A stretch of DNA of 64,000 nucleotides, taken from NCBI RefSeq assembly GCF_023223645.1, contig NZ_JALKBY010000002.1, positions 1 to 64,000 of the forward strand, read 5' to 3'. The notes beneath the pieces are model-generated. The model was not told the DNA's origin. It searched no databases and saw only the letters and a list, made by a program, of their open reading frames with translations. The stretch is from Natroniella sulfidigena (GTDB lineage Bacteria > Bacillota > Halanaerobiia > Halobacteroidales > Halobacteroidaceae). Numbering within the stretch: the stretch's first letter is position 1; the number at the start of each line of letters is the position of its first letter. Both the position numbers and the translations under genes were made by a program. Shown here piece by piece: positions 20,706-25,604 of this stretch.

Positions 20706-21254
20706 TTATAATGTCGGTTCAATCAAACCATAATTCCCATCATTTCTTCTGTAAACAACATTTACCTCTTCAGTATTGGCATTAGAAAAGACAAAGAAAT
20801 CATGATCTAACAAATCCATCTGCATTACTGCTTCTTCAACCGGCATCGGCTTAATCGCAAAACTTTTAGTCTTAACAATCTTAGCAGCTAAATCTTCATC
20901 TTCCTCATCTCGCACTGATCTTTTTCCTAACTGCTCTTTAAATTCTAATTTCTCTCGTCTTAATTTATTGCTAATTCTAGTTTTATACTTACGAACTTGT
21001 CGTTCTAGCTTTTCAATTACACCATCAATTGAAGCATACATATCTCCAGTCTCTTCTTCACCACGCAAGATCAAGCCATCTGCAAAAATAGTTACCTCAA
21101 CTATATGTCGCTCCTTGTCCACTTCAAAAGAAATTTGGCACTCAATTACAACATCTTCATCAAAGTACTTCTTGAGCTTTCCAATTTTCTCTCGACCATA
21201 ATTCCTTAAAGCATCAGTAATTTCGATATTTTTACCTCTAACCATGAATTTCAT
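20706..21254 (-). CDS. hpf: Ribosome hibernation-promoting factor, long form
   Basis: A 182-residue long HPF. The N-terminal HPF/YfiA domain (about 1-100; VEVTIFADGLILRGEEET, MYASIDGVIEKLERQVRKY) binds the 30S decoding region. The C-terminal dimerisation domain (about 125-180; KSFAIKPMPVEEAVMQMDLLDHDFF with VVYRRNDGNYGLIEP) joins two ribosomes into inactive 100S particles. The ATG follows AGGAGTTGATCC. It is encoded immediately before secA, as in many Firmicutes. Confidence 0.96.
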   Translation of the reverse strand: MKFMVRGKNIEITDALRNYGREKIGKLKKYFDEDVVIECQISFEVDKERHIVEVTIFADGLILRGEEETGDMYASIDGVIEKLERQVRKYKTRISNKLRREKLEFKEQLGKRSVRDEEDEDLAAKIVKTKSFAIKPMPVEEAVMQMDLLDHDFFVFSNANTEEVNVVYRRNDGNYGLIEPTL

Positions 21255-21440: not shown

Positions 21441-21463
21441 ATTTATGTCAAGAACAAACTTAC

Positions 21464-21667
21464 TTACAGTTTAGTTACTTTATCAGCTTGTGGTCCTCTG
21501 TCGCCTTCAACGATTTCAAACTCTACTTCTTGACCTTCGTCTAAAGCTTTGAATCCTTCTTCTTCAATTGCTGAGAAGTGTACGAATACGTCGTCTCCTT
21601 CTTCTCTTTCAATAAATCCATACCCTTTTTCGTTGTCAAACCATTTTACGCTACCTGTTAATTTCAT
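21464..21667 (-). CDS. Cold-shock protein, copy A
   Basis: A 67-residue OB-fold single-strand nucleic-acid chaperone. The RNP1-like motif KGYGFIER and RNP2-like motif VFVHFSAI hold the aromatic residues that bind RNA. It is strongly acidic, as expected in a halophile. The ATG sits behind AGGAGG. The protein is identical in every residue to the neighbour at 21776-21979, while the DNA differs at about ten synonymous positions. Confidence 0.95.
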
Positions 21668-21775
21668 CAGTTAATTCCTCCTAATTTTTGTTACTGTAAA
21701 GCTAAACTCATCATCCTACAACTTAAATCCAATTACTAATTTATAATTATTTTTCAGTTATAGTCAATAATAAAC

Positions 21776-21979
21776 TTACAGCTTAGTTACTTTGTCAGCT
21801 TGTGGTCCTCTGTCGCCTTCAACAATTTCAAACTCTACTTCTTGACCTTCATCTAGAGCTTTGAATCCTTCTTCTTCAATTGCTGAAAAATGTACAAATA
21901 CGTCGTCTCCTTCTTCTCTTTCAATAAATCCATACCCTTTTTCATTGTCAAACCATTTTACACTACCTGTTAATTTCAT
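21776..21979 (-). CDS. Cold-shock protein, copy B
   Basis: A second 67-residue cold-shock protein, identical in sequence to copy A and 108 bp upstream of it on the same strand, with its own AGGAGG ribosome site. It has the same RNP1 and RNP2 motifs. Silent differences with no protein change point to an older duplication under strong purifying selection, or to partial gene conversion. The AT-rich 108-bp spacer could hold a separate promoter or a thermo-responsive leader; no clear element was identified. Confidence 0.95.
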
Positions 21980-22107
21980 TAATTCATTCCTCCTATTATT
22001 TCTTACCTTTAAAATTTTAGCAGTCTTTCAACTCACTGTCTTAAATATAACATATATTTTAAAACTTGTCAACAAAATTATAAAAAATAATTTTTCTTTC
22101 TAGCCGA

Positions 22108-23798: not shown

Positions 23799-24554
23799 TT
23801 ACTCAAACCACTTGCTAAAGATCTCATCATAAGTACCGTCTTCTTTAATCTCTGCCAATGCTTGATTGATATTCTCAACTAACTCTTCCTCACCTTGACG
23901 CATTGCCATCCCATAAAACTCCTCAGTAAATGGCTCGCCGACAATCTCAACGCCACCTCGTTCTTGGATATAATCAGCAGTTACAGGTAAGTCATTAACA
24001 ACTGCATCAATTCGACCATTATTTAGATCCTCAAAAGCCTCAGGAATTACATCATAACGATTAACTTCCACATCATCCATCTCACTAACTACTATATCTC
24101 CTGTCGTTCCTAACTGTACTCCAGCCGTTTTTCCTTCTAAATCATCTAAGTCTTGAATCTCGTCATTATCTTCTAAAACTGCAATTACCTGCCCAGCATT
24201 GAAGTATGGATCAGAAAAGTCAACTGCTTGCTCTCTTTCTTCTGTAATTGTCATCGCAGAAATAATCAAATCATACTCATTTGCTTGTAAGCCAGGAATA
24301 ATTCCATCAAAAGCCGTATCTTGAAGTTCAACTTCAACCCCTAGTCGATCTCCAACCTCATTGATTAGATCAACATCAAAACCAACGATCTCATTATCTT
24401 CATCGCGAAATTCAAACGGACGATACGCAGCATCCATTCCCACTGTCAAAGTCTCTTCCTCTTCAATTCGATCCCAAGTTGTTCTTTCATCTTGTGAACA
24501 ACCTACTACTGCTAATAATCCTACCAATAATAAAATTAATAACGTCTTTTTCAT
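23799..24554 (-). CDS. Amino-acid ABC transporter substrate-binding lipoprotein
   Basis: A 251-residue family-3 solute-binding protein. It has a signal peptide with lipobox LAVVGC (Cys near residue 19), which predicts lipid anchoring, then LTVGMDAAYRPFEFRDEDN, VGFDVDLINEVGDRLG, and DLIISAMTITEEREQAVDFSDPYF, the usual amino-acid pocket motifs. The mature protein is rich in Asp and Glu. The ATG follows AGGGAGGAAG. It lies upstream of the permease and ATPase genes on the same strand, with a terminator and a repeat between. The exact amino acid cannot be predicted. Confidence 0.93.
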   Translation of the reverse strand: MKKTLLILLLVGLLAVVGCSQDERTTWDRIEEEETLTVGMDAAYRPFEFRDEDNEIVGFDVDLINEVGDRLGVEVELQDTAFDGIIPGLQANEYDLIISAMTITEEREQAVDFSDPYFNAGQVIAVLEDNDEIQDLDDLEGKTAGVQLGTTGDIVVSEMDDVEVNRYDVIPEAFEDLNNGRIDAVVNDLPVTADYIQERGGVEIVGEPFTEEFYGMAMRQGEEELVENINQALAEIKEDGTYDEIFSKWFE

Positions 24555-24639: not shown

Positions 24640-24837
24640 AGGCTTAGGCTTAGTCTAAGTTTAAGTAACCCCTTAAATTCTTTAAAATAAAAGTTATCTA
24701 CAACCTTTAAAAATAATAATTCCTTAAACAATAAAAAAATTGCCCTTCGGCAATTGAAATTGATTCTAACTATGAACTTAAGCTTTATCTAACTTTTGAT
24801 TTTACTTAGCCTTAAACTTAGCCTTAGACTTAAATTA
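24640..24837. repeat. Hexamer hairpin repeat, AAGGCT family
   Basis: The left arm AAGGCTTAGGCTTAGTCTAAG and the right arm CTTAGCCTTAAACTTAGCC are mirror-related, with a terminator hairpin (24733-24755) between them. It fills the gap between the binding-protein gene and the RNA gene at 24838. Confidence 0.65.
24733..24755 (-). terminator. Rho-independent terminator, likely ends the RNA at 24838-25062
   Basis: The minus strand reads AATTGCCGAAGGGCAATT followed by seven T residues. It lies about 85 bp past the closing helix of the RNA gene on the same strand. Confidence 0.75.
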
Positions 24838-25062
24838 CGCACCCACCTAGCTGACCTGGTTTTTGCCCCCACACCCGCCTACTGGAGAATTCGCAAGATT
24901 TTCCCACTACTATCCCTCTCTAGATAAATTAATACTTATGTACAATTTTCCAGGTAGGACTCACTTCTAAGCCGCACCATGCTCAGTAGCTTCTACTACC
25001 TTACGTGGATCGTTTTGCCTGCGACTGGCATCGACTTTCAACCACAGACCTAGGTGAGTACG
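24838..25062 (-). ncRNA. Structured non-coding RNA of about 225 nt, family unassigned
   Basis: There is no coding frame, but the sequence is richer in GC than its surroundings. Its ends form a continuous 13-bp helix (CGTACTCACCTAG with CTAGGTGGGTGCG, counting GU pairs). The 5' end lies six bases after a TATAAT box. Internal helices can be drawn: GUGG with CCAC enclosing UGCC with GGCA, AGUAG with CUACU, and CCUACCUGG with CCAGUAGG. A terminator follows on the same strand. The closed-end architecture and size recall 6S RNA or the raiA-motif class; neither could be confirmed by eye. It lacks RNase P, tmRNA and SRP hallmarks. Confidence 0.7.
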
Positions 25063-25068
25063 AATCTC

Positions 25069-25097
25069 ATTATATCCTGCTAAAGAAAAAAAATCAA
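25069..25097 (-). promoter_or_regulatory. Sigma-A promoter of the structured RNA
   Basis: The minus strand has TTGATT at 25097-25092 and TATAAT at 25074-25069 with a 17-bp spacer. The first base of the 13-bp closing helix is at the expected start site. Confidence 0.8.
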
Positions 25098-25106
25098 GGG
25101 GATATT

Positions 25107-25150
25107 AGTGGCTAGTGATTTGTAATTAGTGATTAGTCACTAGTTCGTAA
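25107..25150. repeat. ACTAGTT-family heptamer arm
   Basis: An array of GTGGCTAGTGATTTG, TAATTAGTGATTAGTC, ACTAGTTC units upstream of the RNA promoter. Only one arm was found here. Confidence 0.65.
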
Positions 25151-25202: not shown

Positions 25203-25604
25203 TTATTCGTTATCTTTTTTAACACTATTAATGAAACCATTTAATAATTTACCTACAATATTGGCATCTTTTTTTAAATTACTATATAAGTCTTCTTCTA
25301 TATATCCTAAATCCCTAGACAGTATCAATAAATACTTGATTTCCTCCAATGAACCACGGGCAACATATAAAAACCGTAATAATTCTTTACTAGTATTTCT
25401 ACCTGTCCCCTCTGCAATATTATTCGGAATAGATGTAACAGCTCTCTTTATTTGATCTATTAAACCAAACCTCTCACTTTTGGGAAATGAATCTATCGTC
25501 TCATATACCTCTAAGACCAACTCATGTGATTTCTGCCACACTTTTAATTTCTCAAAGTAATCTCTAGTGACTTGTGATTTTTTATCTGTAATTGATGAAT
25601 TCAT
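25203..25604 (-). CDS. Four-helix-bundle (S23/IVS-type) protein, copy 1
   Basis: A 133-residue protein predicted all-helical, with the family pattern FEKLKVWQKSHELVLEVYE, FPKSERFGLIDQIKRAVTSIPNNIAEG, SLEEIKYLLILSRDLGYI. It belongs to the four-helix-bundle family first seen as ORFs within 23S rRNA intervening sequences and now found widely between genes. Function is unknown. The ATG has GGGGAG upstream. It lies at the border of the accessory zone. A second, divergent member sits at 39955 inside the flagellar cluster. Confidence 0.85.
   Translation of the reverse strand: MNSSITDKKSQVTRDYFEKLKVWQKSHELVLEVYETIDSFPKSERFGLIDQIKRAVTSIPNNIAEGTGRNTSKELLRFLYVARGSLEEIKYLLILSRDLGYIEEDLYSNLKKDANIVGKLLNGFINSVKKDNE

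Follow-up and report, generated by a model that had tools for sequence, protein, structure and literature searches.

A raiA-motif (ModT) RNA gene from a Natroniella-like bacterium and its short, interrupted and missing counterparts in relatives

Judged from its sequence, the 225-nt structured RNA gene of Natroniella sulfidigena was a full-length, apparently intact and ordinary copy of the known raiA (ModT) class, whose members rank among the most abundant and most conserved RNAs of bacteria that have no known biochemical activity. The class, its phenotypes and its cryo-EM structures have already been published; the copy described here is a further member, found at a conserved locus of a Natroniella-like bacterium. 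When the whole window (the 64,000-nucleotide stretch of DNA that was analyzed) was scanned against 4227 Rfam families, RF03072 (raiA) matched at 25058-24842 on the minus strand with 182.6 bits (E = 1.7e-46; gathering cut-off, 101.3 bits), covering model positions 1-209 of 209 without truncation. Because a match of this significance spans the whole length of the model, a chance origin is out of the question. No second Rfam family reached its gathering threshold in the 64-kb window, leaving raiA as the sole match, and no tRNA was found there; weak matches to AaHKsRNA82 and JA03 in the flanks were below cut-off in A+T-rich sequence and were taken as chance. The window's genome carried one raiA copy. 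The original prediction had offered 6S RNA, a raiA-motif RNA or an undescribed class, and the Rfam search it proposed selected the second, the full-length RF03072 match taking the place of a new class. A 6S RNA of this lineage, to which the gene is superficially similar in its size, in the long helix that joins its ends and in the strength of its promoter, can be dismissed with near certainty, as no 6S family matched anywhere in the window and the raiA match was full length.

All elements of the gene lay on the minus strand, a point left unstated by the original prediction. Including an extended P1, the RNA occupied 24838-25062, exactly the 225 nt of noncoding sequence foreseen, and contained no substantial ORF. 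The sigma-A promoter was recovered as described, as TTGATT-N17-TATAAT, with the -35 hexamer at 25092-25097, a 17-bp spacer, the -10 hexamer at 25069-25074 and the start of P1 six bases past TATAAT. The two hexamers together matched the consensus at 10 of 12 positions. TATAAT was kept in all aligned loci but the mis-registered one of G010, and 13 of the 14 loci had TTG at -35. P1 joined a 5' arm (25050-25062) to a 3' arm (24838-24850), both recovered by folding and by covariation, through 13 continuous pairs; two of these were G-U, so that "perfect" had been a slightly generous description of the helix. P3 was a hairpin, GCC-AGUCGCA-GGC (25017-25029), whose 7-nt loop formed the 5' half of pk-1 and whose numbering fits the loop start at A33 in the cryo-EM structure (PMC11751092). 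The 3' half of pk-1, UGCGGCU (24970-24976), made seven pairs with this loop, with standard pairs at 100% in 14 sequences. A conserved AACCA strand (24857-24861) paired with UGGUU (25040-25044) and adjoined a near-invariant ACCAGGUCAGCU block, which also occurred in a half-size form of the RNA, here called mini-raiA. The strand CCAC (25005-25008), invariant in full-length relatives, has GUGG at 24869-24872 as its likely partner; the matching stem covaries in mini-raiA, and we infer that it corresponds to P4 of the cryo-EM structures. Folding of the 225-nt RNA gave -75.8 kcal/mol, compared to -61.3 +/- 4.4 in 200 dinucleotide shuffles, none of which folded as well (z = -3.27). The terminator expected after the helix was present, as AATTGCCGAAGGGCAATT with a T-run (24738-24755), though 82 nt past P1 and beyond the interval that the prediction had covered. 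Termination at this site would give a longer raiA isoform than the 3'-extended forms of about 240 nt in C. perfringens and P. sordellii. The terminator region was flanked by a 20-nt inverted repeat (85%) of the GGCTTAGTCTAAG type (24646-24665 and 24811-24830), and TAGTGATTAGTGATTAGTCACTAG-like short repeats (25105-25150 and 25203-25604) were situated directly upstream of the raiA promoter, just downstream of a gene for a 23S-rRNA-intervening-sequence protein (IVP).

We evaluated the structure in an alignment of 14 homologues with their upstream sequence, for which P3 and four further P1 pairs were added to the Rfam structure. The helices were kept with strong covariation, the check that had been proposed for conserved pairing: 90.6% of 840 cells were paired, two-sided changes occurred at 21 pairs (shuffles, 11.1; slid controls, 8-13), with a covariation score of 0.251 versus 0.174. 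The 7-bp pk-1 (AGUCGCA/UGCGGCU) that is characteristic of raiA was pairable in all 14 sequences, with a single compensated pair, in G059. Nucleotides relevant to a putative pk-2 (two pairs) and to the putative noncanonical tertiary contacts were conserved in the alignment. The window RNA agreed with raiA/ModT in the whole model, P1, P3, the 7-bp pk-1, the core, the sigma-A promoter and nearness to hpf, and there was no difference in kind. It also shared with C. acetobutylicum raiA, the structure of which has been solved by cryo-EM (PDB 9CXF / 9ELY), a pk-1 loop starting at position 33, a pk-1 of 7 bp and equivalent conserved segments.

Downstream of the RNA and on the same strand were genes for a family-3 solute-binding protein (SBP_bac_3; 23799-24554, minus strand), which is the first gene of an ABC transporter, its permease and ATPase, two cold-shock proteins (csp) and the ribosome hibernation factor Hpf/RaiA (hpf; 20706-21254, minus strand), followed by a long ORF taken to be secA from its position next to hpf. 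The distance to hpf was 3.6 kb, and nearness to this gene, and often to comFC, is a feature of raiA/ModT, although in the window the ABC transporter and two csp genes separate the two. Upstream were the gene for the IVP, a four-helix bundle protein, and a FlgN-like gene; the RNA was placed between flagellar genes and the ABC-csp-hpf block. Several relatives showed the order FlgN-like, RNA, ABC, csp, hpf; in G010 the RNA adjoined csp, in G005 and G007 it occurred without the ABC/hpf block within the examined stretch, and in G059 it had the opposite orientation. The window's hpf product was 95% identical to its counterpart in Natroniella acetigena, and the raiA match of G001, a genome of the same genus, equalled that of the N. 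acetigena genome, which points to a Natroniella-like source. The tandem cold-shock genes (21462-21694 and 21774-22006) encoded identical proteins within a 233-nt repeat (93% identical, 312-bp spacing), apparently the result of a recent duplication.

Variants of the RNA in other genomes (mini-raiA, a copy split by an IStron and a loss in G004) make the question of its function more testable and may matter more than the window copy. Mini-raiA, which occupies the raiA locus at about half the length, points to the part that would bear the function. The first lead to it was a 44.8-bit RF03072 match in Tepidanaerobacter sp. EBM-38, and it was present in 13 of the 17 genomes of that bacterium's class (G065 and G070-G081; loci L122 6278-6403 on the minus strand, L124 5985-6109 on the plus strand, and L125-L135), the others carrying full-length raiA (2 genomes) or no raiA (2 genomes). 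Measured between the two ends of P1, it was 119-127 nt long, and its RF03072 match was limited to P1, P3 and the 3' core, with 39-59 bits, below the cut-off. P1, P3, P4, P5 and a possible pk-1 were kept. The mini-raiA of the Thermosediminibacterales had in common with the window RNA two identical blocks of 28 and 17 nt, the locus (upstream of the same ABC transporter as full raiA, where the locus was visible) and the promoter type, with a conserved CTTGC...TATAA; unlike the window RNA, it was without P6-P8 and half or most of the pk-loop. A zinc-finger CDS (PF13451) started 31-37 nt past its end. The P1/P1c/P3a/P3b/P4 structure was 98.9% paired, with two-sided changes at two pairs of P4, and for P5, whose strands were chosen by hand, pairing with the own partner reached 4.92 of 5 versus 3.42 with those of others. 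No covariation was found for pk-1 in mini-raiA, its own pairing being no better than cross-pairing, though GCCG/CGGC was present in 13 of 13.

A covariance model of mini-raiA recovered the mini forms of the class and otherwise, in a 299-genome sample, only ordinary or intermediate raiA; it gave no match in those relatives of the window that were tested and carry no raiA. Intermediate forms measured 167 nt in G259 (L144), 183 nt in G059 (L012) and 165 nt in G365 (L149), and in the alignment of the G059 copy the P7/P8 hairpin region was missing. The literature searched, which did not include Soares 2024, held no mention of a half-size raiA form. We propose that raiA forms a natural size series (about 200-280, 165-183 and 119-127 nt), with mini-raiA probably a functional orthologue reduced to P1-P3-P4-P5 and a possible pk-1; its locus and sequence suggest that it would have the same function as raiA. 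If this is true, it is the conserved P1/P3 core, rather than the P6-P8 domain, that would carry the raiA activity.

In its Natroniella-like host, which has sporulation genes, the window gene is the only raiA-motif (ModT) gene, and it very probably acts as its orthologues do. raiA/ModT is highly abundant, acts in trans as judged by complementation, and has sporulation and c-di-GMP phenotypes (PMC11706538); cryo-EM revealed a monomeric fold with two pseudoknots (PMC11751092, PMC12286853). By analogy with the orthologues of C. acetobutylicum and C. difficile, the window raiA would be strongly transcribed during growth from its SigA promoter. As in its orthologues, the RNA would fold as a compact monomer and, acting in trans, would help the cell stop growing, enter stationary phase in a timely manner and sporulate; part of the effect may be to keep c-di-GMP low, as published for C. 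difficile. The literature also places raiA in bacteria that form no spores, which means that sporulation cannot be the basic role of the RNA. P1/P1c, the sharp bend that follows and P3 (GGUCUGUGGUUGAAAGUCGAUGCC ... ACCAGGUCAGCUA) are proposed to constitute a conserved core that binds a protein or ligand, because this core survives in the half-size relatives, from which P6-P8 are absent. We lean toward such a putative binding site over a site for catalysis on other RNAs or some further role.

That raiA might instead be a trans-acting ribozyme processing tRNAs, rRNAs or other RNAs is consistent with its compact tertiary fold and near-invariant unpaired nucleotides, and with the raised tRNA and 5S levels of a modT deletion, whose authors speculated on a ribozyme (PMC11706538). 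Cleavage activity is, however, not reported in the literature examined, and an active site would have to survive the loss of P6-P8 and half of the pk-loop in mini-raiA, so we regard this explanation as unlikely. Considerably more doubtful is a cis-acting leader or riboswitch controlling the downstream ABC transporter or the hpf operon, even though Rfam types RF03072 as "Cis-reg; riboswitch", the SBP gene follows the RNA on the same strand after about 284 nt in an order that recurs in relatives, and the mini form of the Thermosediminibacterales ends only 31-37 nt ahead of the zinc-finger start codon. Rather than an expression platform coupled to the adjacent gene, the window RNA has its own intrinsic terminator between it and the SBP gene, and its relatives vary in their neighbors (G005, G007 and G010) and orientation (reversed in G059). 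This variation in neighbors and orientation speaks against a fixed cis role, in line with the published trans complementation, which rules out an obligate one (PMC11706538).

raiA was carried by 13 of 61 genomes (the window's genome and 60 relatives), comprising all members of the two families of the window's order except G004, together with one distant genome; the copy in G006 was interrupted. As a marker of sporulation, Spo0A was uninformative, occurring in 60 of the 61 genomes, and SpoIVA was present in 29. raiA was found in 13 of the 29 SpoIVA-bearing genomes compared to 0 of the 32 without SpoIVA, with a hypergeometric chance of about 1e-5 that is confounded by kinship, as the carriers are essentially one clade; an association of raiA with SpoIVA in the window's class is thus suggestive. 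A further set of 27 genomes included two without SpoIVA, namely G365, which has raiA, and G075, which has the mini form. G004 belongs to the same family and bears SpoIVA; 140 bp separated its SBP gene from its FlgN-like gene, with no RNA in this gap (L114 6412-6552), and searches by pattern, DNA, the mini model and synteny found no hidden or degenerate raiA. This sequence evidence marks G004 as a clean loss of raiA in an otherwise conserved locus, amounting to a natural knock-out. Since G004 bears sporulation genes and is without the RNA, raiA is not essential in it. A plasmid or phage location of raiA was considered and rejected, as there was no phage match and the two "plasmid" matches were chromosome-sized records. 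NZ_CP154629.1 (L112), listed in PLSDB as an Acetoanaerobium noterae "plasmid" of 2.63 Mb, contained a full raiA RNA and is evidently a chromosome.

In G006, identified as Orenia metallireducens by identical matches, the raiA gene (L099 8803-10848) was split just 3' of pk-1 by a 1,817-bp insert. Within the insert were a TnpB ORF of 379 aa (PF07282/PF01385/PF12323), a group I intron scoring 74.3 bits over a cut-off of 50, and a RAGATH-18 RNA (65.5 bits), which belongs to the guide-RNA family of IS607 TnpB. Joining ...TTAGAGG to TGAGACC... dropped the 1,817 bp and left a sequence that was colinear with the intact sister genes, the exons rejoining exactly at GG. Group B IStrons are characterized by a GG target and by splicing after G (PMC4227781), and the insert is a group B-like IStron whose predicted self-splicing from the middle of the core would restore raiA. 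Two sub-threshold matches in G006, considered as degenerate paralogues, were rejected as such, being the two exons of this one interrupted gene.
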